Part shown: positions 2,605-48,345 of the stretch, piece after piece
How the letters are laid out: the number at the start of each line of letters is the position of its first letter
How positions within the stretch are numbered: the first letter of the stretch is position 1
Assembly: GCA_017461775.1 (NCBI GenBank)
Contig: JAFTXD010000098.1
Location: 1 to 54,174, forward strand
Length of the DNA stretch: 54,174 bases
Source: Lachnospiraceae bacterium
GTDB lineage: Bacteria; Bacillota; Clostridia; Lachnospirales; Lachnospiraceae
Direction of reading: 5' to 3'
The notes under the pieces: generated by a model
Seen by the model: the letters and a program-made list of their open reading frames with translations, nothing else
Told to the model about the DNA's origin: nothing
Databases searched by the model: none
Translations under genes and position numbers: made by a program

Positions 2605-2633
2605 TACTATATAGGCAAAATTTATGAATGCAA

Positions 2634-2671
2634 CTCTTACTCATATTTAGTACAATGTGGGTAAGGGTTTT
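2634..2671 (+). terminator. Rho-independent terminator after the HAD gene
   Basis: CUCUUACUCA (2634-2643) pairs with UGGGUAAGGG (2658-2667), allowing G-U pairs, and a run of five T follows at 2667-2671. The T-run abuts the next gene, which argues that its real start lies downstream of 2671. Confidence 0.6.
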
Positions 2672-2691
2672 TGTATATGAGGGACAATGAA

Positions 2692-3069: not shown

Positions 3070-3084
3070 AAGAGGAGCTTACAT

Positions 3085-3552: not shown

Positions 3553-3568
3553 GAGAGGTAGGAAAGAG

Positions 3569-4054: not shown

Positions 4055-4074
4055 CCAACTGAGAGGGAGATAAC

Positions 4075-4440: not shown

Positions 4441-4474
4441 GAACATAGTAAAATTTGTTTTGGAGATGTGAATT

Positions 4475-4732: not shown

Positions 4733-4798
4733 TTCCCCGGTTATCAAGAACTTGGACAGAACGAAAAACCGAAGTAATCGTGAACAATAGTAGAGAAT

Positions 4799-5096: not shown

Positions 5097-5164
5097 GAAA
5101 ATTGGTGGAGTTGTAAATAATTTCACTATTCAAAGAATGTAAGCTAATTTTTGGAGGCGTTGTA

Positions 5165-5656: not shown

Positions 5657-6325
5657 ATGAAAATACAAATCAGTGACAATCTCATTAAACATTATTTGCA
5701 AAATGTTTATTTCATAAACGGTCATAGTTATGCGGGCAAATCGACTATGGTGAAGATGTTGGCAGAACGCTTTGATATGGTCGCGTGTGGAGAAAATTAC
5801 CATGATGTATTTCCCCGTGAAAAGTTATCTCGCTGGAAGCAGCCGGGCTTATGCTATTTTGATACTATGAGTGGCTGGGAAGAATGGCTGAACATGACAC
5901 CCGAGGAGCATTACAATTGGACGTACAATGTATCTCAGGAGTGTATTGAAATTGAAATACTTGAACTATTAAAACTGGCAGCAAGCGGGAAAAAGATAAT
6001 TGTTGATACCAATATTCCACCGGACGTTCTCAAAGAGATTTCTGACTACAATCATGTAGCCATAATGCTTTGTGACCCACCGGATATTTGCGCTACAAGG
6101 TTTTTTGACCGTGAAGATCCTGACAAGAAGTTTATGATGGATCAAATCAAATTGTGTAAGGATCCAGAGAAAACATTAAAGAATTTTAACTCATGGGCAT
6201 TATATCATCCTCCATTGGAGACGGATTGGGAACACACAGGATTTTTCACTTACACCCGTTCAGATTTTGAAAATGATACAAGAGAAGAAATGATGGAGGC
6301 CTTGGTGAAGCATTTTAGGCTGTAA
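5657..6325 (+). CDS. P-loop kinase-like protein
   Basis: 222 residues. A Walker A motif, GHSYAGKSTM, lies near residues 23-32 after a hydrophobic strand (NVYFING). A Walker-B-like strand KKIIVDTNIP is near 115, and a lid-like arginine region (ATRFFDREDPDKKFM) near 150 resembles nucleoside or shikimate-kinase-type small-molecule kinases. Hence it probably phosphorylates a small metabolite or antibiotic. No closer family recognised. Start 5657 follows AGGAAGAGGTAAG. It is a free-standing gene, 33 bases before the acetyltransferase. Confidence 0.65.
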   Translation: MKIQISDNLIKHYLQNVYFINGHSYAGKSTMVKMLAERFDMVACGENYHDVFPREKLSRWKQPGLCYFDTMSGWEEWLNMTPEEHYNWTYNVSQECIEIEILELLKLAASGKKIIVDTNIPPDVLKEISDYNHVAIMLCDPPDICATRFFDREDPDKKFMMDQIKLCKDPEKTLKNFNSWALYHPPLETDWEHTGFFTYTRSDFENDTREEMMEALVKHFRL

Positions 6326-6358
6326 GTAAGAGAAGATAATGTTTGGAGGCAACTGTAA

Positions 6359-6991
6359 ATGAATAATATAGAACGTAGAGACAAAGAATTGGCATACATT
6401 TCTGATGAAGCAGTTATGGCAGAGCAGGCACAGTGTAGAAAAATTTTGCAAAAACTGAATTTTATGGATAGAAGTGATTTTGCAGGAATTGTGGAGGTAG
6501 TAAAAGAATTGTTGGGAGATGTAGAAGGGGCATTTATCAATCCCCCATTTTACTGCGATTATGGTTCCCATATTGAAGTTGGCAAGAATTTTTTTGCGAA
6601 TTATAACTGTACAATTATTGATGTGGCAAAGGTAAAAATCGGAGACAATTGTCAGCTGGCACCCAATGTATCTATATATACAGCCGGTCACCCTGTTTAT
6701 CCGTCCACGCGTAATTCTGCCTATGAATATGGAAAAGCGATTACCATCGGGGATAATGTGTGGATAGGCGGTAATACGGTGATTTGTCCCGGTGTGCACA
6801 TTGGTAGTAATGTGGTTATTGGGGCAGGAAGTGTAGTCACAAAAGACATTCCGGATTGGTGTATCGCTGTTGGCAACCCATGTAGGGTAAAACGCAGGAT
6901 TACAGAGGCGGATAAAAGAAAATTGTTTAAGGATGAAGAGATTGATGAAGAGGCATGGGAAGATATTGTGGGACGCAGTTTGCGTATTTGA
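6359..6991 (+). CDS. Sugar O-acetyltransferase (maltose/galactoside type, hexapeptide repeat)
   Basis: 210 residues of the left-handed beta-helix acetyltransferase family (Maa/LacA/NodL type), which moves acetyl from acetyl-CoA to a sugar hydroxyl. The N-terminal helical domain (residues 1-55) precedes the hexapeptide coils. The catalytic His is in IYTAGHPVYP near residue 107, followed by WIGGNTVICPGVHIGSNVVI coils and the typical GNPCRVKR end near 180. It is trimeric in known members. Start 6359 follows TTTGGAGGC. It may belong with the neighbouring flavin reductase gene (13 bases downstream). Confidence 0.88.
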   Translation: MNNIERRDKELAYISDEAVMAEQAQCRKILQKLNFMDRSDFAGIVEVVKELLGDVEGAFINPPFYCDYGSHIEVGKNFFANYNCTIIDVAKVKIGDNCQLAPNVSIYTAGHPVYPSTRNSAYEYGKAITIGDNVWIGGNTVICPGVHIGSNVVIGAGSVVTKDIPDWCIAVGNPCRVKRRITEADKRKLFKDEEIDEEAWEDIVGRSLRI

Positions 6992-7004
6992 CGAGGTGGA
7001 GTAG

Positions 7005-7574
7005 ATGAAGGTTGTAAAGCGAAAATCAATAGGAACACACTTTTCCATGTGTGTTCAACCTGCTTTCATTATTGGTACAAACAATGAAGATGGAACATAT
7101 AATTTTGCTCCAATTACATGGGTTAGTGTTACAAATGAGAAAGAGAACGATTATTTACTGACGATCAGCATGTTTGGTACGAAAAGAACCAAGCAGAATG
7201 TGATTAGAACGGGTATTCTAAGCGTAAATCTTGTCAGTACAGATATGCTTGAACTTATGGACTATTTTGGCACACATCATGCAAAGGATGGAATGAAAGA
7301 TGGAGTATTGTATGATGTTGGCAGGGGAGATGTTGTAGATGTTCCTATTCTGGAGGTGAGTCGTTGGATATATGAATGCGAAGTAGCTCATTCAGTTGAA
7401 ATAGGAGAGTCTACCACCTTTTTCTGCAGAATAAGGAATATTCAAATAGATGAACAGCTCGAATTCAGGGATACTTTTGATGTAAATCTTACGAAACTAG
7501 AACCTGTGATTTATTCGGGAATGTATCATAGTATCGGGAAGTTACTGGGGAAAATAGGGGATTTTACGGAATAG
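7005..7574 (+). CDS. Flavin reductase-like, FMN-binding split barrel protein
   Basis: 189 residues. The start (KRKSIGTHFSMCVQPAFIIG) and NFAPITWVSVTN near residue 30 match the flavin reductase/DIM6 family, where N-x-x-P-x-T/S-W contacts FMN. SMFGTKRTKQN and LSVNLVSTDMLELMDYFG fit the family order. These proteins bind FMN and may reduce free flavin or small electron acceptors with NAD(P)H. Start 7005 is preceded by GAGGTGGAG. Probably co-transcribed with the acetyltransferase upstream. Confidence 0.8.
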   Translation: MKVVKRKSIGTHFSMCVQPAFIIGTNNEDGTYNFAPITWVSVTNEKENDYLLTISMFGTKRTKQNVIRTGILSVNLVSTDMLELMDYFGTHHAKDGMKDGVLYDVGRGDVVDVPILEVSRWIYECEVAHSVEIGESTTFFCRIRNIQIDEQLEFRDTFDVNLTKLEPVIYSGMYHSIGKLLGKIGDFTE

Positions 7575-7598
7575 ACAAACTTGACAAAGGAGACTAAA

Positions 7599-8138
7599 AT
7601 GTTTGCAAAAACGATTAAGATTTCCGCAATAATTTTTGTGGTGTTAACAATAATTTTTACGCTAGTTTATCAATGCAGTCCCAACACAGTGATATTGAGC
7701 ATAGCGATTACATTCGGTACGATTAGCTATCATTTTTTGATGCGTTTGGCTGTAGGATATGTTGTGAATGGAATCTTTCATAACAGATTTAATTATAAAA
7801 GAAAGTGGTTTCAAGAAAAGAAATTTGAAAAGCGTTTGTATGAAGTATTACGAGTGAAAAAGTGGAAAGATAAAATGCCTACCTTTGCACCGGAAATGCT
7901 AGATTTAAAAGTACATACATGGGAAGAAATTGCAGGGGCAATGTGTCAATCAGAAGTGGTGCATTCAATTATCGTGGTATTATGTTTTGTGCCGATATTA
8001 GCTACATTAATTTGGGGGACATTTTGGGTGTTTTTTATTACATCTGTTTTATCCGCTTGTGTTGAGAGTATGTTTGTGATAATGCAACGATATAACAGAC
8101 CGAGAGTAATAAGGATGATTGAGAAGGAGAAGAAATAG
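7599..8138 (+). CDS. Integral membrane protein, CrtO-type acyltransferase-like
   Basis: 179 residues with two N-terminal membrane segments (about 5-25 and 28-50) and a hydrophobic pair near 122-160. Between them lies LRVKKWKDKMPTF, resembling the x-x-W-K-D-K/R-L/M-P motif of glycosyl-4,4'-diaponeurosporenoate acyltransferase (CrtO)-family proteins. That assignment is tentative; no carotenoid genes are nearby, so the real acyl acceptor would be different. The start at 7599 is chosen for AAAGGAGA at 7586-7593; a TTG at 7581 would include this site in the coding sequence. Confidence 0.55.
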   Translation: MFAKTIKISAIIFVVLTIIFTLVYQCSPNTVILSIAITFGTISYHFLMRLAVGYVVNGIFHNRFNYKRKWFQEKKFEKRLYEVLRVKKWKDKMPTFAPEMLDLKVHTWEEIAGAMCQSEVVHSIIVVLCFVPILATLIWGTFWVFFITSVLSACVESMFVIMQRYNRPRVIRMIEKEKK

Positions 8139-9405: not shown

Positions 9406-10023
9406 ATGCTAAATAATATAGGTTTTGATTTATGGGCAGATGACTATGATAAGAGTGTAGGATTGTCTGATGAAGATGGAACATATCCTTTCGCAGGGTA
9501 CAAAACTATTCTTAATGCAATATATAATCGCGTTTTAAATGCTTCTTCTAAGACTGTTTTAGACATTGAGTTCGGGACAGGAACGCTGACCTCTAAACTA
9601 TATGAACATGGTTGTGAGATTTATGGACAAGATTTTTCTGATAGAATGATAGAATTGGCACAAGTGAAAATGCCAAATGCTAAATTGTTCCAAGGCGATT
9701 TCTCAAATGGATTGGCAGAACCTCTAACACAACAAAAATATGATGCTATCATTGCAACATATTCCCTACACCATTTGACAGATTTACAAAAAGTTACTTT
9801 TTTGAAAAGTTTACTTATGCTATTAAGCGAGGGTGGATGCATTTATATTGGAGATGTGGCATTTGAGAATCGTGTTGCACTTCAAAAATGTATGGTTGAA
9901 ACTGGAGATGAGTGGGACGATGATGAGATATATTTTGTATATGATGAATTAAAGGCGTATTTTCCAAGAATGCAGTTTGAACAAATGTCAAACTGTGCAG
10001 GACTTATCTCGTTACAAAGATAA
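9406..10023 (+). CDS. Class I SAM-dependent methyltransferase
   Basis: 205 residues. Motif I is VLDIEFGTGTLTSKLYEHG near residue 54, motif II region EIYGQDFSDRMIELA near 76, then YDAIIATYSLHHL near 115 (motif IV/post) and LLSEGGCIYIGD near 145. Together these form a Rossmann methyltransferase of the YrrT/ubiE-like group acting on an unknown substrate. In motif I the usual D-x-G-x-G-T-G has Glu at the first Gly (DIEFGTG), which could weaken SAM binding. Start 9406 is fixed by GAGGTGAAG at 9394-9402. No signal peptide. Confidence 0.75.
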   Translation: MLNNIGFDLWADDYDKSVGLSDEDGTYPFAGYKTILNAIYNRVLNASSKTVLDIEFGTGTLTSKLYEHGCEIYGQDFSDRMIELAQVKMPNAKLFQGDFSNGLAEPLTQQKYDAIIATYSLHHLTDLQKVTFLKSLLMLLSEGGCIYIGDVAFENRVALQKCMVETGDEWDDDEIYFVYDELKAYFPRMQFEQMSNCAGLISLQR

Positions 10024-10052
10024 ATTTTAAGATTTGTGAAGGCTTGAAAGCA

Positions 10053-10129
10053 ATATGCCATATTTTCGGACATGCAAGCTAAGGATGCAGTGAATACAGG
10101 AAGTGTTGACCGAGGGATATTCAAGATAG
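10053..10129 (+). pseudogene. Degraded partial copy of the metallophosphoesterase gene
   Basis: 10053-10108 matches 8830-8885 of the intact metallophosphoesterase with few changes (shared ATATGCCATATTTTCG, ACATGCAAGCT). It then jumps to a sequence matching the gene's last codons (GGATATTCAAGATAG here, GGTATATTCGAGATAG at 9072-9087). The join falls where the parent has two short direct repeats, GGAAGCGTTG (8877) and GGAAGTGCTG (9058), so a deletion between repeats explains it. No start; non-functional. Confidence 0.75.
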
Positions 10130-37426: not shown

Positions 37427-37455
37427 TTGACACGCGGAGGCGATGGTTATACAAT
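37427..37455 (+). promoter_or_regulatory. Promoter of the tandem HTH regulator
   Basis: TTGACA (37427-37432), 17 bases, TACAAT (37450-37455): near-consensus, so the regulator is probably made constitutively. No copy of the 39552 palindrome is seen here. Confidence 0.75.
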
Positions 37456-37510
37456 GGACTAAACGAGTAATGGTATAAAGAAAAAATATGTTTGGATAGA
37501 GGATTGTTTT

Positions 37511-39349
37511 ATGAATGAAATGGATTCATGGGAGTATTGCGAGTTACTTAAATCGCAAATTCAGACATCAAAGGTTTCTATAGAAAAGTTGAGTGAAGGA
37601 TTATGTTCCGTCAGTATGTTAAGTCGTATATGCAGTGGAGAGAGAAGTGCTAGCAAAATGCTCCGAGATTGTTTGATGCAGAGGCTGGGGCTGGCGGAAG
37701 AGCGCAATGAGAATTTTCTTTTTCAGGAGGAATATGACAGTTGGAGAATGCGGCAAAGAATTATGGTTTGCATAAATGAAGAGGATATTGCTGCGGCAGA
37801 GAAATTGCTGGATGCATATGAAAAGAATATTAGTAGCCATGTGGAACAACAGTTTTGCCAAGTGATGCGAATTCAGATTATGCGAACAAAAGTGCCAGAT
37901 TGTGTGGAGGTAGGAGATTTATATGAAAAGGCACTAAAGCTTACTGTTCCGGCCATAGATGAGAAAAACGTAAATGAACTTCAATTATCGGTGAAGGAGT
38001 TGGATTTAGTTTTAGAATATGTGTATCATTGCCATAGGGAGAATGTGGCGGAACGATGTGAAGAATTACTGGAATACATAGATACTTGCGTTATGGATGA
38101 GCAGAGCAGAGCGAAGATTCTACCAAAAGTCATATATTATCAGTGTAGAATACTGGCAGATAAGGAGCAGGCGGATTATAGCGCATTACTTAGGAGGTGC
38201 AATCAGGCAATCGAGTGTTTGAGGGATGCCAGACGCCTATATTTCTTTTGGGAGTTGTTACAGGAGAGAAGTAGACTTTATGATAAATTAGAAGAGTCCC
38301 TCAGAGAAAAAAATGAACCAGAGATGGTAGGGATAATCCGCGGCTTGCAGGAGGAAAATGCAAAGTGGTCAGAGATTATTGAGGAGGTATATTTGGCAGC
38401 TGGTATGGAGCCTGTTATGAAGAATTGTTGTTATTTGTATCTGGAGCGAGATACCCATTGCATCAACGAAGTAATTAAGAAAAGGCGTGAGATGCTTGGG
38501 TTGACAAAGAAGCAATTGGCGGAGGGAATATGCTCAGAAAAGACCATAGGGCGACTGGAAAACACCAAAGGGAAGGCGCAGCTGCAGATAGTTAAGGAAC
38601 TGTTTGAGCGATTAGGAATGCCTGGAGAATATCAAAGAAAAGAGATAATAGCAGGGAGCGCAGAGACCTATGAAGTGTTGGAAAAAATTGTGAAATATGG
38701 AAATGACAGATCATACGATGATGCTTTGGCAGAGCTTGAGCGGCTGGAAACCATGCTACCTATGGAGAAGCCTTTGAATCAGCAATATATGAAACGGCAG
38801 AGGGCTATCTGCCTCTTTAGTAAGGGTGATATTACGAAAGAGGAGGCCTTAGAAGAAATAAGGGGGGCTATGAATATTACTACTTCTTATGAAATGGTTA
38901 TGAGGAAGCGAGTTCTCTTTTTGACACATAGTGAAATGACCTGTATTCAGAATATGGCATTAATTCAAGGCAGAGATGTGCTGAATATGCATGATGAGGT
39001 ATTGGTAGAAATTTGTAAGGAATACGAGAGGGAGAATATGATAGCACAGAATATCAGTATGTATGAATTTGTAATGTCAGCTTATGCGAGTGCGCTGGGA
39101 AACATGGGAGAATATGAAATGTCGGACACAATCAGTAAAAGGATTATTAAAGAATGTGTCCGATGTGGAAGATTTGGCGGGATTGCAAACAATTTGTATT
39201 CGCTTGCTTGGAATAGTAAAGAAAAAAATGATGGCACATTCTCATATCAAGCGTGGGTGCATGAAGTAAGAATGGCGGCTCAGCTTTTTAAGATTGGGAA
39301 AAAATATAATAGTGAAGCACTATTATTAAAAGCATTAAAGGATGCTTAG
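37511..39349 (+). CDS. Large cytoplasmic regulator with two HTH/helical-repeat halves, RRNPP-like
   Basis: 612 residues, fully helical in appearance, no membrane segment. Two related halves can be seen. The first has an HTH-like region LKSQIQTSKVSIEKLSEGLC, then SVSMLSRICSGERSAS (residues ~14-50), followed by helical repeats. The second has an XRE-type HTH, IKKRREMLGLTKKQLAEGIC, then SEKTIGRLENTKGKAQ (~319-356), followed by TPR-like helices to the end. HTH plus TPR is the plan of peptide-sensing RRNPP regulators (Rgg, PlcR, PrgX); a tandem double form is unusual. Its stop overlaps a convergent gene for a 48-residue secreted-type peptide. The sensor role is inferred. Confidence 0.7.
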   Translation: MNEMDSWEYCELLKSQIQTSKVSIEKLSEGLCSVSMLSRICSGERSASKMLRDCLMQRLGLAEERNENFLFQEEYDSWRMRQRIMVCINEEDIAAAEKLLDAYEKNISSHVEQQFCQVMRIQIMRTKVPDCVEVGDLYEKALKLTVPAIDEKNVNELQLSVKELDLVLEYVYHCHRENVAERCEELLEYIDTCVMDEQSRAKILPKVIYYQCRILADKEQADYSALLRRCNQAIECLRDARRLYFFWELLQERSRLYDKLEESLREKNEPEMVGIIRGLQEENAKWSEIIEEVYLAAGMEPVMKNCCYLYLERDTHCINEVIKKRREMLGLTKKQLAEGICSEKTIGRLENTKGKAQLQIVKELFERLGMPGEYQRKEIIAGSAETYEVLEKIVKYGNDRSYDDALAELERLETMLPMEKPLNQQYMKRQRAICLFSKGDITKEEALEEIRGAMNITTSYEMVMRKRVLFLTHSEMTCIQNMALIQGRDVLNMHDEVLVEICKEYERENMIAQNISMYEFVMSAYASALGNMGEYEMSDTISKRIIKECVRCGRFGGIANNLYSLAWNSKEKNDGTFSYQAWVHEVRMAAQLFKIGKKYNSEALLLKALKDA

Positions 39350-39492
39350 GTCTCTTCTTGGGACCAATCAAAAATGTCTTCTAAGGGCATGGTTGGATAA
39401 TCATCAGAGGTAAGTTTACAATTAATACCAATGGATAGCAATAATAAGATTAAAGTAAGGATGAGTGTTTTATTCAACAAATCTTTCATCAT
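39346..39492 (-). CDS. 48-residue peptide precursor, candidate signalling peptide
   Basis: Minus strand, overlapping the regulator's stop by two bases. It starts MMKDLLNKTLILTLILLLLS, continues IGINCKLTSDDYPTMPL and ends EDIFDWSQEET. A positive start and a strong hydrophobic core look like a signal peptide. Cys25 gives a poor lipobox (GINC). The acidic, aromatic C-terminal part would be the mature peptide. GAGAGG at 39501-39506 precedes the ATG at 39492 by 8 bases, and its own promoter lies at 39521-39549. Convergent peptide/regulator pairs are known for Rgg-SHP. Reality of the gene is well supported; its signalling role is inference. Confidence 0.7.
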   Translation of the reverse strand: MMKDLLNKTLILTLILLLLSIGINCKLTSDDYPTMPLEDIFDWSQEET

Positions 39493-39520
39493 AAGAAGTT
39501 CCTCTCATTAGTTTACTGCT

Positions 39521-39549
39521 ATTATATTTTCAACGTATGCTTTAAGCAA
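39521..39549 (-). promoter_or_regulatory. Promoter of the peptide gene
   Basis: Minus strand: TTGCTT (39544-39549), 17 bases, TATAAT (39521-39526). The -35 box ends two bases from the 46-bp palindrome. Confidence 0.7.
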
Positions 39550-39551
39550 TG

Positions 39552-39597
39552 CCCAAACCTGTCAAACAAAAAGTAAATTTTGTTTGACAGGTTTGGG
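39552..39597. promoter_or_regulatory. 46-bp palindrome between divergent promoters
   Basis: CCCAAACCTGTCAAACAAAA (39552-39571), six bases, then its exact reverse complement (39578-39597). It lies between the peptide promoter (left) and the secreted-protein promoter (right), two bases from each -35. A dimeric regulator bound here could activate or repress both. It is not followed by a T-run on either side, so it is not an ordinary terminator. Confidence 0.8.
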
Positions 39598-39599
39598 TA

Positions 39600-39629
39600 T
39601 TGAAGAATGCAAAGCAATAACCGTACAAT
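39600..39629 (+). promoter_or_regulatory. Promoter of the secreted-protein/anchored-protein operon
   Basis: TTGAAG (39600-39605), 18 bases, TACAAT (39624-39629), a moderate promoter abutting the palindrome; probably helped by an activator. Confidence 0.55.
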
Positions 39630-39676
39630 AAGAATATAGTTATACAATAGTTTTCTAGAATAAGGAGGAGAAGAAA

Positions 39677-40318
39677 GTGAAGAAAATATTTAAATTATTA
39701 ACTATCTGTTTATTTATGTTATGGGCAACAAGTATCAATGTATGTGCAAAAGAACTTCATAATAATATGGAAGTGACCAAAGTAGGAGATACGGGAACGC
39801 GTAGCACAAGTGAAAGTGTTGAGAAAGATAGCCGTGAACTTTCATCAAATGTGCTGGTGATTGATAAAAATCTTATATTTGACAAAGAACTTTGCGATGG
39901 CGAGAAACGTGTTTTATATGAGAAGGATGGTGAAAAGGTGTGTGTAGAAGTGACGGACGTTACAGAAATGAATGAAGGTGTGTCTGTTGCTGCTGCATCA
40001 GATATTTTAACGACTTCACGTGTATTTACATTTTATAGAGAAAATGTATTAGGAGTTAGGACTAATTTATTTAGTGTGACATCTGTATGTACATGGATAA
40101 AGGGACAAGAGATTCTTGATTTGACTTGTACATATACTATTTTGAAAACAGGAGTATCTTGCTCATGGGATGATACATACAAGAGGGCTACGTATTTTGT
40201 GCACGTATTAGCATTAGACATGACTTATCTGGGAGACTCCTATTTCTTTTTATTTGATGCTACCTTAAATTCGGAAACGTTATCGACGTTGTCATTGGGG
40301 TGTACACATAATGGGTAA
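39677..40318 (+). CDS. Secreted hypothetical protein
   Basis: 213 residues starting at GTG 39677 behind AAGGAGGAG (39662-39670). The signal peptide KKIFKLLTICLFMLWATSIN has likely cleavage after VCA (residue ~26). The mature part is Ser/Thr-rich at first (TRSTSESVEKDSRELSS), then a beta-rich region with four or more Cys (LCDGEK, SVCTWIKGQ, LTCTYTIL, VSCSWDD) that could form disulfides outside the cell. Not recognised. It shares an operon with the next gene (8-base overlap) and is probably controlled by the adjacent peptide/regulator pair. Confidence 0.7.
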   Translation: MKKIFKLLTICLFMLWATSINVCAKELHNNMEVTKVGDTGTRSTSESVEKDSRELSSNVLVIDKNLIFDKELCDGEKRVLYEKDGEKVCVEVTDVTEMNEGVSVAAASDILTTSRVFTFYRENVLGVRTNLFSVTSVCTWIKGQEILDLTCTYTILKTGVSCSWDDTYKRATYFVHVLALDMTYLGDSYFFLFDATLNSETLSTLSLGCTHNG

Positions 40319-41633
40319 TGATAAAAAAAGAATTCTATTAGCTATTGGGGGCTGCATTATCCTGGGATTTACACTTGCTGGTGTTATAATGATAAAAAGC
40401 AGAGATAAGGAAGAGGTGGATAAAAATAGTTTTTATTTTGATTATCTGGAAACTCGTATAGCTACAGAGATAGAAACGATTGATGCGGTATCGAACTGTG
40501 AAATAAATATCAGCTATTCAGGTAATACAATCATTTCTGCTGAGGTGTATATAGATGTGGAGGGTGAAGAAATTGAGAATGTGGAAGCGAAAATAATGAA
40601 TTATGTTTCAGTAGTTTTTGAGCTTCCAGAGGATAAAATCAGTATAATTTATGAACCATTGCTTTCCAGCCAAAGTGATAGTGGGGAAAATACATACTCT
40701 CCCTTTCTAAAGGACAAAGACCGCATCGTAGCAGGAAACTATTATATTGCTGTCCTGGATGATGAGGGGAGCGTAAAATATGCTTATCAGGAAGGCAGGG
40801 GCGATTATTTGGAGATAGAAGAATTGGCATGGGAGAATGTAGCTTGCTTGATAGAAAATGATGATTTTCCCGTGGCAATTTCAGAAAGTGGAAAGCTTTT
40901 AGTGCCTAGGGGGAAGTCTTCGGAAGAGCTCTTGCAGGAATTTCAGGAAATGGAAGCAGAGCTGCCTTTAGATGCGGTGCTGGGAACCGCACATTTTGAC
41001 CATATCGAGACCGCAGAAAAGGTGGAGGCTTGGGACGCTCTGGAGTTTGCAGTGGGCAACTATCCCCATTATGTATTGGGTGTACAGAAAAGTGGTATGC
41101 TTTGCGAAGCCGGCATCTCGGGGAAAGCGGAGCAGGAGCAAATAGACGCTGTACTCAGCAGACAGAATGTAAGGGATGTGGCCATGCTTTACGGAGGTGA
41201 GCAGATAGTCTGTCTGGAGGAAGGCGGAAGTATCTATTCCGCAGGTGCCCGGACCGACGGATGGGCCGATATGGTATCTGTAGAAGCCGGTAAAGTGATG
41301 ATATTCGGACTGACCGCTGATGGTAAGGTAGTACATACCGAGTATCCCTTTGCAAAGGACTACTCCACGGAGAATATGCATGACATTGTATTTATTGCCG
41401 TAGGACATGACATGGATACCAATATGGATGTGCTCTATGGCATACGAAAGGACGGTAAGGTGGTAGACCATTTAGGGCAGGAAGTGACAGGCTTTGAAGA
41501 TATGGCGGAGATTGATGTTACATTGACAGGTGGAATCATCCTTGGTTTGAATAAGGAAGGTCAACTGGTTATCAGTGAGGATGCGGACATTAATTTTCAA
41601 AAGCTGGTGGAAGAATTTAATCGTGTAAGATAG
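40311..41633 (+). CDS. Membrane-anchored protein with repeat (beta-propeller-like) domain
   Basis: 440 residues. One N-terminal membrane segment (ILLAIGGCIILGFTLAGVIM, ~9-28) leaves the rest outside. Residues 45-110 (YLETRIATEIETIDAVSNCE..., EDKISIIYEPL) recall the small alpha/beta ring-building-motif fold of SpoIIIAG/YscJ-type proteins. Residues ~235-425 contain repeats such as YVLGVQKSGMLCEAG, QIVCLEEGGSIYSAG, MIFGLTADGKVVH, LYGIRKDGKVVDHLG and IILGLNKEGQLVIS, in the style of an RCC1-like beta-propeller. Overlaps the secreted-protein gene, so the pair may work together at the cell surface. Function unknown. Confidence 0.7.
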   Translation: MGNDKKRILLAIGGCIILGFTLAGVIMIKSRDKEEVDKNSFYFDYLETRIATEIETIDAVSNCEINISYSGNTIISAEVYIDVEGEEIENVEAKIMNYVSVVFELPEDKISIIYEPLLSSQSDSGENTYSPFLKDKDRIVAGNYYIAVLDDEGSVKYAYQEGRGDYLEIEELAWENVACLIENDDFPVAISESGKLLVPRGKSSEELLQEFQEMEAELPLDAVLGTAHFDHIETAEKVEAWDALEFAVGNYPHYVLGVQKSGMLCEAGISGKAEQEQIDAVLSRQNVRDVAMLYGGEQIVCLEEGGSIYSAGARTDGWADMVSVEAGKVMIFGLTADGKVVHTEYPFAKDYSTENMHDIVFIAVGHDMDTNMDVLYGIRKDGKVVDHLGQEVTGFEDMAEIDVTLTGGIILGLNKEGQLVISEDADINFQKLVEEFNRVR

Positions 41634-41709: not shown

Positions 41710-43743
41710 TTATTCTTGTTTACTGCTTACTATCGCATAATAAGCATTGGAGGTTATCTTGTATACAACAGCGTAGGCCAGTGCGAAGACTGCAAAGCAG
41801 GCTGCCGTGACTATAATCATCAGGCGCACATTATCAAAGTTAAACATCTGCAAAAGCTTCCACAAAATGGGGAAGGCAAAGCAAAGGTGCAGTCCTGCCA
41901 GCAGCAGGGGTGAAAAGAATACTGTCAACACCTGAGAATTAATGGATTTTCGGATATCCTTCCTGGTCATACCAACCTTTTGCATAACCTCAAAACGCTT
42001 CTGATCTTCAAAGCCCTCGGAGATTTGCTTATAGTAAATGATAAGCACCGCAGCAAAGAGAAATACTATGCTTAAAAGAATGCCGATAAAGAACAGTCCG
42101 GCGTATAAGCCATAGAAGGTAGAGCGCTCTGCTTCCCGGCAACCATGGGCGTAGCTTGCGCTACCGTCGGCATGGGGGATGAGAAGCTTATTTATTCCGT
42201 CCCGGATATTGTCATAGACCTGAATTTGAACCTCGTCATTTCCATCCACATTAAAATCACAGCTCCAGAAGGCTTCCAAAATGGAGTAGCCCAAAGAATT
42301 TGTCAAACCAGAGATGGGTTGCAAAAGAGCGGGAATATCCGTTGTCACAAGGGTGATAGTGGGAACCATCTGCATTGCGGAATAACCGGAAATATAGATA
42401 TCCTCCAGCTGCGCTTTCACACGCAGGGGCTTGCAGTTTTCGATGGTGAAGGTATCGCTCGTATACTCCGTGCGGAAGCAGTGCAGGAAGCATTCATCCT
42501 CTGCAAGTGTCTCGTTTGTGCCCATAATCCGGTTGTAGTCTGCCAGAGAGATGATGTGCAGATATCCGATGCGTTCATAGGTGGAGAGGTCGAAGGTATT
42601 GTGTGAGCTTTGGTCCACAAGGATACCTTCCTCAGTAAAAAGTCCTGCTACATCTACACCGGCATATTCTGCCGCTTCCTTCTTTGCGGGAGCAAGCTCA
42701 TTTAGTCCGGTCCGCATGTGGGAGAAGCTTTCCTCGTTGAAATGCTCTATATCCGGGATGGAGAGGCGCAGGGTGATATCCTTGGGGTAGCGGCTCATCA
42801 GGGAGTCTTCCGCACCGATGTACATGCTTAAAGTGGCAGAAAGCATTACAAGCACGATGGTAATCAGAACACAGATGGAGGCCAGTCCCGCGCCGTTTCG
42901 TTTCATACGGTATACCATGGAGGATACCGAAACAAAGTGGCGCGCCTGATAATAATATGACTTTCTCTTTTGCAGGAAGCGACAAAGTGCAACGGAGCCT
43001 GCAATAAACAAAAGGTAAGTGGCTACGATAACCATGACCACCGCTATCATAAACCATACGATGGCAGTTAAGGGCTGCTGGATGGAAAGGGCAATATAAT
43101 AGGCAGCAGTCAAAACAGCGATGCCTAAAATTGCAAGTAGCCAGTTGGCCTTTGGGGGTTTTTCGCCTACATTACTGCTCTGTAAGAGCGCCAGCGGGTT
43201 GCTGCGGCGTACCCTAATCAGGGAATTTAACAGTAGAAGAAAATAAATTACCCCAAATAAAAGGGTGGTCTTTACGGCAGAGGTCAAATCCAGCCGCAGG
43301 CTATAGTCTACGCTCTCCAGCAAGAGATTCAGCATACAAAGCTCGGAGAGCTTGGAAAGTGCGATACCGGCCACAAGACCTCCGGTAATGGAGATGCCGG
43401 CAGTCATCACACTTTCCCACAGCATAATCCGTCCCAGATTGTGCTTATCCATGCCTAATATGTTGTAAAGTCCAAATTCCTTATAGCGTTGCCGGATAAG
43501 GAAGGAGTTACTGTAAAACAGGAAAATCAAAGAAAATACAGCTACAACCACACTGCCAACGGGTAGGAGGGTTCTTAGTACTCCGCCTCCTTTCATATGC
43601 TCCAGCATCTCTGTGGAGGAAAGAAAGAATATAATGTAGCTCATCATCACCATTACCATTCCAGTAAGGAGATAGGGCAGGTAAAGACGCTTGTTTTTTC
43701 GGATGCCTTCCGTAGCCAGTTTAGAATAAATATTTCGTTTCAT
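41710..43743 (-). CDS. bceB: BceB-type ABC transporter permease (FtsX-like)
   Basis: 677 residues, about ten membrane helices and one large extracellular domain between helices VII and VIII (roughly residues 305-520), the signature of BceB/VraG-type permeases. These pull antimicrobial peptides off lipid II and also act as the sensor for their kinase. N-terminus: NIYSKLATEGIRKNKRLYLP; after it FLIRQRYKEFGLYNILGMDK, the typical FtsX-domain text; C-terminal FEDQKRFEVMQKVGMTRKDI repeats it. Its start overlaps the end of bceA by four bases. Which peptide drug it handles cannot be told. Confidence 0.88.
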   Translation of the reverse strand: MKRNIYSKLATEGIRKNKRLYLPYLLTGMVMVMMSYIIFFLSSTEMLEHMKGGGVLRTLLPVGSVVVAVFSLIFLFYSNSFLIRQRYKEFGLYNILGMDKHNLGRIMLWESVMTAGISITGGLVAGIALSKLSELCMLNLLLESVDYSLRLDLTSAVKTTLLFGVIYFLLLLNSLIRVRRSNPLALLQSSNVGEKPPKANWLLAILGIAVLTAAYYIALSIQQPLTAIVWFMIAVVMVIVATYLLFIAGSVALCRFLQKRKSYYYQARHFVSVSSMVYRMKRNGAGLASICVLITIVLVMLSATLSMYIGAEDSLMSRYPKDITLRLSIPDIEHFNEESFSHMRTGLNELAPAKKEAAEYAGVDVAGLFTEEGILVDQSSHNTFDLSTYERIGYLHIISLADYNRIMGTNETLAEDECFLHCFRTEYTSDTFTIENCKPLRVKAQLEDIYISGYSAMQMVPTITLVTTDIPALLQPISGLTNSLGYSILEAFWSCDFNVDGNDEVQIQVYDNIRDGINKLLIPHADGSASYAHGCREAERSTFYGLYAGLFFIGILLSIVFLFAAVLIIYYKQISEGFEDQKRFEVMQKVGMTRKDIRKSINSQVLTVFFSPLLLAGLHLCFAFPILWKLLQMFNFDNVRLMIIVTAACFAVFALAYAVVYKITSNAYYAIVSSKQE

Positions 43744-44504
43744 CTTCTCTCACCACCTGTCGTAAGAACTGTGAGAGTATCAGAAATCATTTGATACAGC
43801 TGCTCACTGGAGTGCTCTCCCCGATAAATCTGATGAAAGACTTCCCCATCTTTGATAAACAGTACGCGACCTGCATGACTGGCAGCTTTCACAGAGTGGG
43901 TAACCATTAAAATAGTCTGACCGGCCTGATTGATTTCTCCAAAGAGACGGAGCAGTTCATCCGTGGCTTTGGAATCCAGTGCACCGGTGGGTTCATCTGC
44001 TAGAATCAGCTTTGGATTGGTAATCAGTGCTCTTGCCACGGCGGCGCGCTGTTTTTGACCACCGGATACCTCATAGGGATATTTCTTTAACAGGGAAGAA
44101 ATTCCCAATTGAGCGGCAATGGGGGTGAGCCTTTTGTGCATCTCCATATGGGATTTACCTGCAAGGACTAAGGGAAGATAGATATTATCCTCCAGCGTAA
44201 AGGTATCCAGTAGATTAAATTCCTGAAAAACAAAGCCCAGATTATCCCGGCGAAAGGCAGCTACCTGGGATTCTTTTAGCTTAGAAAGATCCTTTCCATC
44301 CAAAATAACAGAGCCTGCGGTGGGCTTATCCAGAGCAGCCATGATATTTAACAGGGTGGTTTTTCCGGACCCGGATTCTCCCATGATAGCCACATATTCG
44401 CCCTGCTGAACCTGAAAGGAAACGTTCTTTAGTGCTTCAACTTTGTTTTCTCCAAAGCGGGAAGTATATACTTTTTTTACTCCGCTTACAGTTAACATAC
44501 TCAT
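43740..44504 (-). CDS. bceA: BceA-type ABC transporter ATPase
   Basis: 254 residues, MacB/BceA-like. Walker A GESGSGKTT near 39, Q-loop FVFQEFNLLDTFT near 90, signature VSGGQKQRAAVARAL near 143, Walker B KLILADEPTGALD near 162, and H-loop LMVTHS near 196. Powers the BceB permease. RBS AAGGAGG lies nine bases before the ATG at 44504. The upstream gap carries a BceR-box-like element (44598) and a hairpin (44546-44589), consistent with induction by the neighbouring two-component system. Confidence 0.9.
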   Translation of the reverse strand: MSMLTVSGVKKVYTSRFGENKVEALKNVSFQVQQGEYVAIMGESGSGKTTLLNIMAALDKPTAGSVILDGKDLSKLKESQVAAFRRDNLGFVFQEFNLLDTFTLEDNIYLPLVLAGKSHMEMHKRLTPIAAQLGISSLLKKYPYEVSGGQKQRAAVARALITNPKLILADEPTGALDSKATDELLRLFGEINQAGQTILMVTHSVKAASHAGRVLFIKDGEVFHQIYRGEHSSEQLYQMISDTLTVLTTGGERR

Positions 44505-44545
44505 AACAAAAATCCTCCTTTGCGATTTCTGCCTTCATTGTACCC

Positions 44546-44589
44546 AAAAAGGGATTTGCATCGCCATGGAATCGGCTTACAAATCCCTT
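44546..44589 (-). terminator. Terminator of the bceRS genes, within the bceAB leader region
   Basis: On the minus strand AAGGGATTTG (44580-44589) pairs with CAAATCCCTT (44549-44558), followed by TTTTT. A -10-like TACAAT lies just after it (44537-44542), so the bceAB promoter overlaps the hairpin. Confidence 0.7.
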
Positions 44590-44597
44590 CCGAAATC

Positions 44598-44611
44598 TAA
44601 CAGTTTTGTAA
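44598..44611. promoter_or_regulatory. Candidate BceR binding site
   Basis: TTACA-AAAC-TGTTA on the minus strand (TAACA-GTTT-TGTAA on the plus). It fits the BceR-type consensus TNACA-N4-TGTAA apart from one base, and sits upstream of bceA in the gap after the kinase gene. Confidence 0.5.
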
Positions 44612-44616
44612 GAAGA

Positions 44617-45606
44617 CTAATCTGCCTCCTGTTTTGTCTGAGCAAGGTCAATGGTAATGGTGGTTCCTGCATCCACTACGGAGGCAGCGGTGATGGTATG
44701 TCCCAAATTGGAGCAAATACGTTTGCACAGGTACAGACCTATGCCACTTGCTTTCTTATGGGAACGACCGTTATAACCTGTAAAACCATTTTCAAATATT
44801 CGAGGTAAATCCTCCGCGGCAATACCGATTCCGGTATCGGAAATGCACAGCTTTTTTTCGGCGGTAAGCCGGATGGTAACACTGCCGGAAGGCGTGTATT
44901 TTAATGCATTGGATAATATCTGCTCTATTACAAAAGAGAACCATTTTTCATCTGTTACCACAGTGGTATTTAGTGGCTCATAAATCAGACGTAGCTTTCT
45001 GCTGATGAATTCACCGGCAAATTTTTTGACAGTTTGCCGGATGATAGTATCTAAGTCATATTCCTGCAGAACATAGTCGGTGCTGTCAAAGTCCAATCTT
45101 AGAAAGGTTAATACCATTTCTACATACTGCTCAATCCGAAATAAATCCGTAGAGAGCTTGCGGGACAGCGTAGTATCCTCGTTTTGCAGATGAAGCCGCA
45201 TGGAGGCAATGGGGGTCTTTATTTGATGAACCCACACGGTATAGTAATCCATCATATCTAAATATCTGCGATTCATTTTGGTATTATAATCCGTGTATTC
45301 TTCACCCAGGGTATGTAGAACCTGCTGATATGCTTCCTCTTCCATACCTTCTGCCGGAGGAAAGGTGCCTGTAACCACATCCGTAAGCGAATGAATATGT
45401 TTCAGCTGTTTCACCTTTCGTTTTATTCGCTGAAAGTCAGCCAGCATCCACACCAGGGCAAGTAAGGTACAGAGAAGCATAGGATATATCACTGCGCCCA
45501 GAGGAAGGTGGTATAGGGTAAAGGATATGGTAAAGATAACAAAAAACATAATCCCTAAGGTAATACCACGCCGCCTTGCCTTTAGGTACTGCAAAAATAA
45601 TGTCAT
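44617..45606 (-). CDS. bceS: BceS-type intramembrane-sensing histidine kinase
   Basis: 329 residues. Two closely spaced N-terminal helices (GITLGIMFFVIFTISFTLYH and AVIYPMLLCTLLALVWMLAD) with almost no extracellular loop define intramembrane-sensing kinases that depend on the BceAB transporter for their signal. H-box: YYTVWVHQIKTPIASMRLHL near 130-150; N-box: IEQILSNALKYTPSGSV near 230; G-boxes: CISDTGIGIAAEDLPRIF and KASGIGLYLCKRI. Start 45606 is chosen over an upstream GTG because GAGGTG precedes it correctly. Gene follows bceR by about ten bases. Confidence 0.9.
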   Translation of the reverse strand: MTLFLQYLKARRRGITLGIMFFVIFTISFTLYHLPLGAVIYPMLLCTLLALVWMLADFQRIKRKVKQLKHIHSLTDVVTGTFPPAEGMEEEAYQQVLHTLGEEYTDYNTKMNRRYLDMMDYYTVWVHQIKTPIASMRLHLQNEDTTLSRKLSTDLFRIEQYVEMVLTFLRLDFDSTDYVLQEYDLDTIIRQTVKKFAGEFISRKLRLIYEPLNTTVVTDEKWFSFVIEQILSNALKYTPSGSVTIRLTAEKKLCISDTGIGIAAEDLPRIFENGFTGYNGRSHKKASGIGLYLCKRICSNLGHTITAASVVDAGTTITIDLAQTKQEAD

Positions 45607-45616
45607 AATAAGCACC

Positions 45617-46291
45617 TCAATTTTCGATGAGATAACCTACACCAAATTTGGTGGTAATAAAATCCGTTAGTCCTGCCGCATCCAGACGCTTACGAAGTCG
45701 GTTCACGTTAACGGAAAGCGTATTTTCGTCCACAAAGCTGTCCGTTTCCCAAAGCTGCTCCATCAATCTTTCCCGGCTGACCACCTTTCCCTTGTTTTGC
45801 ATAAGGGAAAGAAGGATTCGAAATTCATTTTTGGAAAGAGATATCCTTTCACCTTCATAGGTTAAGGTGCTGTCTCCGGTATTCAGGAGTGCGCCTCTGT
45901 GCTCTAAAATGGGCACAGAAGAGGAAAAGTCATAGGTTCTGCGGAGCATTGCCTGCAATTTCGCCATTAGTACACTTTGGTCGAAGGGCTTTGCAATAAA
46001 GTCATCCGCTCCCATATTCATAGCCATGATGATGTTCATGTTATCAGATGCAGAAGAGATGAAGATGACAGGAACCTTGGAAACCCTACGGATTTCATTG
46101 CACCAGTGGTAGCCATTGAAAAAGGGCAGCGTAATATCCAGTAAAACGATATGGGGATCGAAGTCTGCAAATTCAGCCATTACATTACGGAAATTCAAAA
46201 CGCAATGTACCTGCAAGTCCCACATCTTAGCCTGCGCCTCTATGGCCTGGGCTATTCCGTTGTCATCCTCTACAATTAGTAATCGATACAT
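45617..46291 (-). CDS. bceR: BceR-type response regulator (OmpR family)
   Basis: 224 residues. Receiver domain 1-115: LLIVEDDNGIAQAIE, phosphorylated Asp in HIVLLDITLPFFNG, conserved Lys in DDFIAKPFDQSV. C-terminal winged helix: ISLSKNEFRILLSLMQNKG, then VVSRERLMEQLW and ENTLSVNVNRLRKRL. ATG 46291 has GGGAGAG upstream; an earlier ATG would include that site. Expected to activate bceAB through the element at 44598. Followed by bceS. Confidence 0.92.
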   Translation of the reverse strand: MYRLLIVEDDNGIAQAIEAQAKMWDLQVHCVLNFRNVMAEFADFDPHIVLLDITLPFFNGYHWCNEIRRVSKVPVIFISSASDNMNIIMAMNMGADDFIAKPFDQSVLMAKLQAMLRRTYDFSSSVPILEHRGALLNTGDSTLTYEGERISLSKNEFRILLSLMQNKGKVVSRERLMEQLWETDSFVDENTLSVNVNRLRKRLDAAGLTDFITTKFGVGYLIEN

Positions 46292-46325
46292 TCTCTCCCT
46301 TTCCCATGACATAGGATTTGTAGAA

Positions 46326-48131
46326 CTATGCCATCAATTCTTCCATTTCATCAATTAAGCTTGCAAAAAGCTTCAGTGCCTGGTTAATCGGCTCCTTGGT
46401 GGACATATCCACGCCTGCATCCTTTAAGATGGATACCGGGTCCTTGGAGCAGCCGGCACTTAAGAAGTTCTCCTTGTAAGCCTTCACAGCAGGCTCGCCT
46501 TCCTTCAAAATCTTCTCGGACAGTGCGATAGCAGCGGAGAAGCCGGTAGCGTACTGGTACACGTAGAAGTTGTAGTAGAAGTGAGGAATTCTTGCCCACT
46601 CTAAGTCAATATAAGCATCATGTACGATATCCTTACCAAAGTAAAGGTCGATTAAATCATGATATACCTTGCTTGCGGACTGGGCATTGATGCTTTCGCC
46701 CCGTGCACACATCTCGCTCATTTTCAGCTCAAACTCTGCAAACATGGTCTGGCGGTAGAGAGTGGTTCTGAACTGCTCTAAGAAGTAGTTGATAAGGTAA
46801 GCACGCTGCTTCTTATCCGTAGTTTTCTCCAGTAAATACTGCATCAGAAGAGCTTCGTTACAGGTAGAAGCTACCTCTGCCACGAAGATTACATAGTCAG
46901 AATCCACCACGGGCTGATATTTGTTGGAATAGTAGGAGTGGAGTGCATGACCCATCTCATGGGCAAGGGTAAACTCGGTATTTAAATCGTCCTGATGATT
47001 TAACAGGACATATGGATGCTTTCTTGCGCCTGCAGAATAAGCACCACTGCGCTTTCCTACATTCTCATACACGTCAATCCAGCGGTTTGCAAAGCCTTCC
47101 TTTAGGATGGATACATAATCATCACCCAGTACCTTGCAGGCCTCGATGGTGTTGATTTTTGCTTCCTCGTAAGGAATCTTGGCATCTACATCTGCCACAA
47201 TAGGGGTATATAAATCGTACATGTGAAGCTCGTCTACGCCAAGAAGCTTCTTGCGAAGACGTACATACTTGTACATGGATTCCATGTTCTCGTGTACGGC
47301 TTCGATTAAGTTGTAATAAACCTTAGTATCTACATTGGTGGCATCTAAGGAAGCCTCCAAGGCACTGCCGTAGCGACGCATATTTGCATTAAACTGCAGC
47401 TGCTTCATCTGGGAGGACAAAATTGCCGCAGAAGTGTTCTTGTGGGCATCGTAGGTGCTGTAAAGGGATTCAAAGGCTGCCTTACGGATGTTTACATCCG
47501 CATTGTGAAGGAGAGGAATGAAGCTGCCGTGGGTTACAGGAAGCTTGCCTCCTTTACCATCATCGATGGACGCAAAGGTCATGTCGGCATTGTTTAAGAT
47601 ACCATTGATATCCCCGGGAGCGCGCATCATTTCGCTGGCAGCAGCCAGGATTTTCTCTTCTTCATTGGAGAGGATGTGAGCTTTTCTGCGGCGGATATTG
47701 TTAAGATATCTCTTGTATACAGCAAGCTGTGGCTCCTGTGCAAAGAAGCCGTCCAGAGTTTCGTCCGGGATGGAAAGAATCTCCGGCTTCATGAAAGAAC
47801 TCATACTGTCGATCTGCGCGTAAAGTCCCATAGCCTGGTCCTTAAAGCCCTGATAAGTGGTGTTCTTGGTGTCCTGGTCGGATTTACGCATAGCATAATT
47901 GATAAAGTTTTCGCCTACGACGCTTAAGTCATCCATCAGCTTTAATGCTGCAAGGAGATTGGCAGAGCTTTCTCCCAGCTTTCCCTGATAGGAAGCAATG
48001 CTGCCGGCCAGCTCCTTTAAGGTTTCCATTTCCTTTTTCCAATCCTCATCGGTGGCATATAAATCCTCCAGCTTCCAGGTATATTCTACCGGAACCTCTT
48101 CACGAAGAGGAATTTTTTTCATTTCGCTCAT
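46326..48131 (-). CDS. pepF: Oligoendopeptidase F (M3B)
   Basis: 601 residues, the standard PepF length, minus strand. Zinc site AHEMGHALHSYYSN with H391/H395 and the downstream Glu in FVAEVASTCNEAL. N-terminal EYTWKLEDLYATDEDWKKEM is the common PepF opening and MQYLLEKTTDKKQRAYLINY a family motif. Cleaves 7-17-residue peptides inside the cell. Start 48131 fits TAGGAGG; the upstream ATG at 48164 precedes that site. The 214-base gap to the next divergent gene holds promoters only. Confidence 0.95.
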   Translation of the reverse strand: MSEMKKIPLREEVPVEYTWKLEDLYATDEDWKKEMETLKELAGSIASYQGKLGESSANLLAALKLMDDLSVVGENFINYAMRKSDQDTKNTTYQGFKDQAMGLYAQIDSMSSFMKPEILSIPDETLDGFFAQEPQLAVYKRYLNNIRRRKAHILSNEEEKILAAASEMMRAPGDINGILNNADMTFASIDDGKGGKLPVTHGSFIPLLHNADVNIRKAAFESLYSTYDAHKNTSAAILSSQMKQLQFNANMRRYGSALEASLDATNVDTKVYYNLIEAVHENMESMYKYVRLRKKLLGVDELHMYDLYTPIVADVDAKIPYEEAKINTIEACKVLGDDYVSILKEGFANRWIDVYENVGKRSGAYSAGARKHPYVLLNHQDDLNTEFTLAHEMGHALHSYYSNKYQPVVDSDYVIFVAEVASTCNEALLMQYLLEKTTDKKQRAYLINYFLEQFRTTLYRQTMFAEFELKMSEMCARGESINAQSASKVYHDLIDLYFGKDIVHDAYIDLEWARIPHFYYNFYVYQYATGFSAAIALSEKILKEGEPAVKAYKENFLSAGCSKDPVSILKDAGVDMSTKEPINQALKLFASLIDEMEELMA

Positions 48132-48345
48132 ATTACTAAAACCTCCTAAAAATACACTATACATAGGCTACCATTTTTTCGTGCACTATGCAATGAAGAA
48201 AACGGGAAAGGTGGTAAAGGATTTTGCATTTTCTACAAAATAATGTAGAAAAGTGTAGAAATAATCATGCGTATGTATTAAAATTGTAAATGAGGTTTTC
48301 TGATTCGGCAGAAAACGTCAGACATTTCTAGAAGGTGAAGAGAGC

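Follow-up and report, generated by a model that had tools for sequence, protein, structure and literature searches.

The window examined here, 54,174 nucleotides of contig JAFTXD010000098.1 from the Lachnospiraceae bacterium assembly GCA_017461775.1, contains a locus that quite probably encodes a peptide-pheromone circuit of RRNPP-like type in which the receptor is double. The locus comprises a long regulator gene, a convergent gene for a short propeptide, and an operon for two surface proteins, with a palindromic operator that separates the peptide gene from the operon. Computed directly are the gene order, the homology and fold of the two halves of the regulator, the conservation of a peptide in a fixed register, the layout of the operator and its promoters, and the local character of the operator. 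The positions below, as elsewhere in the text, are those of the window.

37511–39349, plus strand: regulator, 612 residues, with tandem HTH and TPR halves (about residues 1–300 and 308–612), probable RRNPP-like double receptor (open reading frame, HTH_3, profiles, AlphaFold2 models, fold comparison).
39346–39492, minus strand: propeptide gene, 48 residues, ATG start (open reading frame; kept in place in relatives; Asp at position −10 from the C terminus; ratio of nonsynonymous to synonymous substitution rates, dN/dS, below 1).
39521–39549, minus strand: predicted peptide promoter, −35 TTGCTT (39544–39549), 17-bp spacer, −10 TATAAT (39521–39526).
39547–39602: operator palindrome, 25-nt arms (39547–39571 and 39578–39602) around a 6-nt centre (inverted-repeat scan).
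39600–39629, plus strand: predicted surface-operon promoter, −35 TTGAAG (39600–39605), 18-bp spacer, −10 TACAAT (39624–39629).
39677–40318, plus strand: secreted-looking protein, 213 residues, GTG start, predicted target (open reading frame; homologues in loci L092, L158, L159, and L160).
40311–41633, plus strand: membrane-anchored protein, 440 residues, predicted target (open reading frame; N-terminal hydrophobic segment).

An earlier note, made from the letters of this DNA, had described the regulator as a 612-residue helical protein with two HTH-plus-repeat halves, and this description holds. The two halves are homologous along their whole length (hhalign 99.3%, E 5e-20, single comparison), and each is entirely helical in the AlphaFold2 models, with a predicted local distance difference test score (pLDDT) of 90.6 for the full regulator and 92.5 for half 1 alone. 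Pfam finds HTH_3 in half 2 alone (residues 322–373, E 1.6e-9), the HTH of half 1 being assigned by profile and model; among 45 aligned regulators, 43 have HTH_3 at E 0.01. The XRE-type HTH characteristic of the DNA-binding RRNPP subfamilies is present, and, as modelled, the receptor also carries the TPR repeats that mark RRNPP/RRNPPA receptors. When the family profile was compared with solved structures, half 2 matched PlcR (E 9.9e-7), a protein of 293 residues, whereas half 1 matched a MutR-family regulator (E 0.0022), as well as 5w4m (E 0.0058), which is titled 'Transcriptional regulator' and which we take to be of the Rgg type. Prediction and superposition of the two halves, proposed in the earlier note as a check, returned an HTH/TPR fold, with PlcR, an RRNPP pheromone receptor, as the top-scoring solved fold for half 2, and with NprR, PlcR, and Rap scoring best for half 1, where the remaining rows are largely TPR proteins. 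This fold comparison was a VIA second look at the ranking by Foldseek, and families absent from those lists may still match. The RRNPP-like reading advanced in the note is supported by the PlcR and MutR-family profile matches and by the top-scoring RRNPP folds. In profile and in fold, both halves resemble RRNPP-type receptors, and the whole looks like a variant that would work as one.

The peptide gene is convergent to the regulator gene and their stop codons overlap by 4 bp, as the earlier note had also recognized for the 48-residue frame at 39346–39492. The product, of a length within the 10–100 residues expected of a propeptide adjacent to an RRNPP receptor, has a basic N terminus and a hydrophobic core, both export features judged from its sequence (propeptides of RRNPP systems leave the cell by Sec or PptAB), and a polar and acidic tail, matching the positive start, hydrophobic core, and acidic tail given in the note. 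It ends with MPLED followed by the nine residues IFDWSQEET; the C-terminal 16-mer, the conserved PxxD part included, is PTMPLEDIFDWSQEET.

Relatives of the locus were collected by a scan of named genomes that yielded 56 loci, most of them in Lachnospiraceae. Acetatifactor muris DSM 23669 and Lachnospiraceae bacterium A4 are among the cultured relatives with the system. A closed regulator frame of at least 500 residues with 250 bases beyond it is found in 46; the window and its paralogue L005 bring these to 48, and removal of near-identical loci leaves 43, still including the window and L005. Some labels duplicate one place (L019 = L092, L010 = L080, L022 = L104). The control gene ends for the peptide tests were those of any ATG frames of at least 200 residues in the same loci, some of which are shadow frames. 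Under a strict rule (ATG, 38–95 residues, basic start, uncharged hydrophobic 11-mer, Shine-Dalgarno-like site, and an end located between −45 and +100 bp from the regulator stop), a convergent frame is found at 24 of the 43 regulators, compared with 2 of 445 control gene ends. A loose rule is satisfied at 39 of the 43, yet also at 104 of the 445 controls, so that the loose count means little alone. Open frames opposite gene ends are evidently common, which is what could be said for the view that the peptide frame is a product of chance and that only the regulator and the operator are conserved. That view is nevertheless extremely improbable, given the strict counts, the dN/dS values of 0.12–0.72 for the peptide codons, below 1 in 35 of 35 pairs (the pairs are not independent), and the C-terminal register: an export-type convergent peptide whose tenth residue, counted from the C terminus, is Asp or Asn is found at 33 of the 43 regulators and at 10 of the 445 controls. 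With these last counts the same order of regulator and peptide, which the earlier note suggested seeking in other Lachnospiraceae, is found there. The stop-to-stop offset is at most 10 bp in 23 of the 33 loci and identical to that in the window in 10. One of the 33, L086, was probably counted by accident, its stop seeming to lie later than in its relative L119.

The same register is apparent in 37 peptides collected by hand, 31 of which have Asp at −10, whereas in 2000 shuffles no column of the 20 exceeded 14. In that set, L068, L073, L081, and L098 were chosen after a relaxed look and L133 has another type of operator; the 33 of 43 and the control counts given above are independent of this choice. 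Among 49 listed peptides, the residues up to −10 are most often G-[IV]-[AS]-P-[LQM]-[NS]-D, and the information per position is 1.04–2.45 bits from −16 to −10 and 0.48–1.27 bits in the last nine residues. Across the relatives, the propeptides are 44–93 residues long, with a signal-like N terminus and a polar, register-fixed tail. In L066 and L071, which belong to different metagenome-assembled genomes and have closely related regulators, the last 13 residues (PMHDLDIETNFYI) agree exactly although the peptides are otherwise different, a possible case of a shared pheromone code. In L103, a palindrome with perfect 30-nt arms (9990–10055) directly follows the regulator and no peptide ORF (open reading frame) was found there; the signal may have been lost, leaving a receiver without a sender.

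The operator is the most diagnostic element of the locus, although it is missing from the earlier note. Its sequence, CAATGCCCAAACCTGTCAAACAAAA-agtaaa-TTTTGTTTGACAGGTTTGGGTATTG, forms an inverted repeat stronger than any other in the 54-kb window, with longer imperfect arms at 39538–39571 and 39578–39611. The two predicted promoters diverge from it, and the TTG of both −35 elements is located inside the ends of the operator arms. A palindrome scoring at least 13 is found within 800 bp downstream of 36 of the 43 regulators, compared with 15 of 115 control gene ends (the remainder of 150 random ones after removal of those near a regulator). Upstream of 41 peptide starts, two loci being counted twice, 35 reach this score, the best of 205 shuffled stretches scoring 12.5. 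Typical arms in the relatives are CAAGGGACAGAGTTGTCAAAAA or CAATGCCCAGAGTTGTCCAAA, and most end in TTG when read outward. In 30 chosen palindrome loci, with four of the 60 sides excluded for want of a TTG, the TTG at the arm end is 16–18 bp from the best −10 in 24 of the 27 sides facing the peptide and in 17 of the 29 facing the operon, compared with 15% for shuffled flanks, and TTGACA is absent from all 56 of the −35 elements derived from the arms. Activator sites are usually laid out in such a way that the operator ends on a poor −35 accompanied by a good −10. Here the operator reaches just to the −35, with poor −35 elements and good −10 elements, which makes it more likely that the regulator activates rather than represses. 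None of the seven inverted repeats found in the window is a palindrome upstream of 37511 that would point to autoregulation of the regulator.

Two further copies of the system are present in the assembly that holds the window (G000, 2.9 Mb, 82% complete). The paralogous locus L005 on contig C115 encodes a 610-residue regulator, 60% identical to that in the window, with a convergent 48-residue peptide, the same 4-bp overlap, and a palindrome of the same kind. In the L005 peptide, the counterpart of IFDWSQEET is YDDYNPKYT. Its operon differs from that of the window, consisting of a 137-residue protein with a sub-threshold ResA match, a six-bladed-propeller protein (DUF5128/NHL), two permease-type proteins, one with FtsX and the other with a MacB_PCD match below the cut-off, and an ABC ATPase. 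The third and more distant system, L133 on contig C1, has a 608-residue regulator (27% identity) and a convergent peptide with the same overlap, together with a different palindrome (of the CCATGACGTTTTCGGAAAATT type) and an operon that includes an ABC ATPase. In L133 (G000:C1:2000-12000, 2098–2137 and 4811–4858), there is a second, shorter copy of the palindrome upstream of a gene for a 115-residue lipoprotein-like protein that precedes the regulator, so that the L133 regulator may be autoregulated. The exact half-site pattern of the window and L005 has four matches in the assembly, accounted for by the two arms of each locus; two further sites come next with two mismatches, and up to three mismatches there are 18 matches, compared with 17 for the reversed control. 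With exact operators at two loci and looser matches at the background level, the direct regulon of the window operator looks local within the assembled sequence.

In contrast to the peptide, which stays at the 3′ end of the regulator gene, the operon on the other side of the operator varies from locus to locus. Operons of L005, L082, and L113 encode six-bladed-propeller/NHL proteins, FtsX-type permeases, and ABC ATPases; those of L080, L109, and L111 encode a small secreted-looking protein followed by lipoproteins that resemble solute-binding proteins. In L065 and L101, the operons encode radical SAM/SPASM maturase-like proteins (L065:10467-11738 and L101:11983-13272) related to maturases of ribosomally synthesized and post-translationally modified peptides (RiPPs), although they score below the cut-off of every NCBIfam model listed, which were the best 25 of 59 matches and the best 25 of 48, respectively. 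The first operon genes of L066, L072, and L091 look similar, by eye, to these radical SAM genes. Where the target operon would be expected, L119 has a second regulator of 592 residues (5892–7670), in which there are two stretches of HTH_3 and a TPR_12 match below the cut-off, an arrangement that suggests a regulatory cascade, and L106 (5151–9347) has two similar long regulators in series.

This variation bears on what the peptide is for. It may be imagined that the regulator is a local operon switch that senses a metabolite or stress, the peptide being an item of cargo, such as an envelope-active or competition peptide, rather than the ligand. The peptide and the operon share one operator, which makes the peptide a regulated output as well, and among the sister operons there are some with genes for maturase-like enzymes and ABC transporters. 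We nonetheless regard this explanation as unlikely, since a peptide that remains constant while the operon changes is what is expected of a ligand rather than of cargo, since a fixed Asp at −10 in front of a more variable nine-residue tail suits a processed signal, and since the receptor halves resemble those of pheromone receptors. The enzymes of L065 and L101 speak for a further proposal, that the peptide is a RiPP precursor modified into the end product of the operon; however, a maturase is missing after the operator in the window, in L005, and in many sister loci (by eye and by Pfam) while the peptide architecture is kept, and the N terminus of the peptide resembles an export signal and not a RiPP leader, making this proposal very unlikely to hold. 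Small hydrophobic peptides beside XRE-type regulators can also be toxins, and the peptide could act as an intracellular or membrane anti-regulator or a small toxin paired with the regulator, with no signalling between cells. The best NCBIfam match of the regulator is indeed a HipB-type antitoxin model (TIGR03070), which was rejected as an assignment: its 26.8 bits are far under the cut-off of 71.65 and cover the HTH region alone. Moreover, the polar tail is long and fixed in register, and the operator serves a separate operon, which in sister loci encodes lipoproteins, transporters, or maturase-like enzymes, so that a toxin or anti-regulator appears decidedly unlikely.

The preferred reading, a pheromone circuit, accounts for the arrangement as follows. 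From it we infer the export, processing, re-import, and binding of the peptide, as well as the stoichiometry and the sign of regulation. The 48-residue propeptide would be exported through its basic and hydrophobic N terminus and trimmed to a C-terminal signal, either the last nine residues, IFDWSQEET, or about 16 residues that include the conserved PxxD. After re-import, this signal would be bound by the regulator, in the TPR groove of one half or of each. The regulator itself may be a built-in heterodimer, the two HTH domains of which would read sub-sites within each operator arm, so that two regulators would fill the whole palindrome. A single operator would in this way drive back-to-back promoters, that of the peptide itself, yielding positive feedback, and that of the secreted and membrane-anchored pair, yielding a surface output.

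The idea of a heterodimer is consistent with the existence of unfused counterparts. Nine foreign regions were picked for a short regulator match, and in six of them, from five genomes (L134, L135, L136, L137, L140, and L141), there are two adjacent regulators of about 308–323 residues, the other three having a single regulator. The paired genes overlap by 19 nt in four loci or 28 nt in two, the first start codon being assumed, with a constant frame offset, which possibly reflects translational coupling or fusion by frameshift. In six of six pairs, gene 1 prefers the profile of half 1 and gene 2 that of half 2, and the three single regulators prefer half 1; the halves consequently look like old, distinct subunits rather than a recent repeat. 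Four of the six pairs have a convergent export-type peptide, located −8 to +9 bp from the stop of gene 2, while in L136 and L140 no convincing peptide was found. RRNPP receptors function as homodimers; here the halves have diverged, whether they share one chain or are encoded by two overlapping genes, and their sequences suggest a heteromer. A tentative though not far-fetched extension is that the Lachnospiraceae possess a distinct signalling branch with an obligate-heteromer receptor, the subunits A and B of which would have diverged before the sampled lineages split and would be encoded by two overlapping genes or fused. Each subunit would read its own sub-site of a composite operator, and one or both might bind a peptide, in the latter case different ligands forming a logic gate. 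Several insulated copies per species would each have their own nine-residue pheromone code and local cargo.

A number of observations weigh against the proposed circuit. For half 1, a designed HTH protein matches the profile as well as the MutR-family regulator does (E 0.0024 versus 0.0022), and unrelated TPR proteins tie with the RRNPP folds. Pfam TPR families are absent from all 45 aligned regulators at E 0.01, so that the TPR assignment derives from the models and from weak profile matches; in the related 592-residue double-HTH regulator of L119, the TPR_12 match (E 1e-4) is below the cut-off. A palindrome is lacking in 7 of the 43 relatives, and a peptide that passes the test for Asp or Asn at −10 in 10 of them: none was accepted in L085, L096, L099, L100, L103, and L120, while L081, L082, L106, and L107 have peptides that fail it. 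The covariation between the HTH domains and the operator sub-sites (HTH1 with the inner and HTH2 with the outer half of the arm) comes mostly from states confined to one clade each, L082 being the exception, which makes it weak, and it is not counted as independent evidence. The assembly, 82% complete, has a single oligopeptide-binding protein (SBP_bac_5). The distribution is patchy: with partial and single-half matches included, 48 of the 138 genomes in the genus, and 43 of the 299 that were sampled from the family, have a regulator match at E 0.001 (both counts include the source genome), and the other 90 of the 138 have none. Finally, with its 612 residues the fused regulator is outside the RRNPP receptor signature of 250–500 residues (validated for 285–473) given in the available text of PMC10075063, and for this reason it is not filed as a plain RRNPP member; the twelve unfused proteins, at 308–323 residues each, would fall within that length.

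Carriage of the system by phages was also considered and set aside, a scan of viral_contigs having returned no relative.

The predicted targets, a secreted and a membrane-anchored protein in one operon as the earlier note had it, are encoded by frames that overlap by 8 bp, with a Shine-Dalgarno-like AGGAGG upstream of the first. Neither matches a Pfam or NCBIfam family above the cut-off. The 440-residue protein has an N-terminal anchored domain followed by weakly RCC1-like repeats (WD40_RLD E 0.029, below the cut-off), and the anchored domain is shared with a 131-residue protein of L092 (E 4.6e-7) and a 124-residue protein of L158 (E 1e-7). In L092, homologues of both cargo proteins are found side by side next to a regulator, a peptide, and an operator of the same kind; in L158, they are side by side at a contig end. 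In L159 and L160, a short lipoprotein follows the homologue of the 213-residue protein, and its relation to the 440-residue protein is weak at best. By BLASTP against the anchored domain of the window, the lipoprotein of L159 gives E 0.007, a weak match, and that of L160 gives E 0.21, which is no match, although the two match each other (E 4e-8). These similarities being too weak, firm homology in L159 and L160 is limited to the first cargo gene. A YscJ/FliF match of the L160 lipoprotein (E 0.0022) is below the cut-off and serves as a lead, no more. Convergent to the surface operon, on the minus strand at 41710–48164, lie genes for an FtsX permease, an ABC ATPase, a histidine kinase, a response regulator, and oligopeptidase F (46326–48164, Pfam Peptidase_M3), the first four of which form a module that resembles the Bce type.

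The possibility of a new class, raised in the earlier note, stands in part. No such double receptor was found in the literature searched, yet its halves look RRNPP-type, which favours a variant. The available text of the RRNPPA survey (PMC9765709) and of a structural phylogeny (PMC12700828) contains no mention that we found of a tandem, fused, or two-HTH receptor, and among the papers listed from the literature searched, with few subscription papers or preprints, we found no description of RRNPP systems in Lachnospiraceae or of tandem, two-HTH, or heterodimeric RRNPP receptors. One community-level paper, PMC10626739, contains the words Lachnospiraceae, Rgg, and Phr. A genome-wide RRNPP detector keeps receptors of 250–500 residues by default, according to the available text of PMC10075063, and would drop fused receptors such as the 612-residue regulator. 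If the circuit is confirmed, it would supply a ready list of receptor–pheromone–operator triples in gut commensals, with a predicted pheromone position (the nine residues after the conserved Asp) and a predicted operator, as well as a natural example in which a family of receptors has become a single-chain heterodimer. In the literature searched, little was found on peptide communication among gut Lachnospiraceae.

Comparison with known systems reveals both shared and distinct features. The Agr system (AgrBDCA) senses a peptide from outside through a kinase, unlike the system of the window with its predicted cytoplasmic receptor, and no AgrB is present among the eight neighbouring window proteins scanned. 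In L160 (G123:C31:16000-25000, 1657–5412), genes for a LytTR response regulator, a GHKL kinase, and AgrB precede the homologue of the 213-residue protein (E 1.3e-5) and the lipoprotein, so that related cargo is placed behind an Agr-type quorum-sensing locus. This second kind of quorum-sensing locus would fit density-controlled cargo, without proving it. PlcR, which with PapR forms a system of the Bacillus cereus group, is a single HTH and TPR chain, whereas the regulator of the window has two diverged HTH and TPR halves in one chain. The PlcR regulon is wide and papR is located on the same strand; in contrast, the operator of the window is exact at just two loci of the assembly and the peptide gene is convergent. 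TprA, NprR, and Rap are likewise single receptors. The available text of PMC10075063 describes Rap as lacking a DNA-binding domain. In TprA-PhrA, the system of a pneumococcal PlcR orthologue, the receptor and the peptide control a neighbouring lantibiotic-type cluster (PMC6753895, accessible part), and the locus described here is similar in pairing a PlcR-type receptor and a peptide with adjoining genes as the target. In streptococcal Group III Rgg-SHP, the peptide gene is convergent and overlaps the receptor gene at its 3′ end (PMC13361665, accessible part), as the peptide gene of the window does by 4 bp; the match of the half 1 profile to a MutR-family structure is a further likeness to Rgg. 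Rgg systems are also linked to radical SAM RiPPs, and hydrophobic residues abound in Group III SHPs (PMC13361665, accessible part), SHPs being exported by PptAB (PMC10075063, accessible part). Unlike in Group III Rgg-SHP, the receptor encoded in the window is double, and its propeptide combines a hydrophobic core with a polar and acidic tail held in a fixed register.

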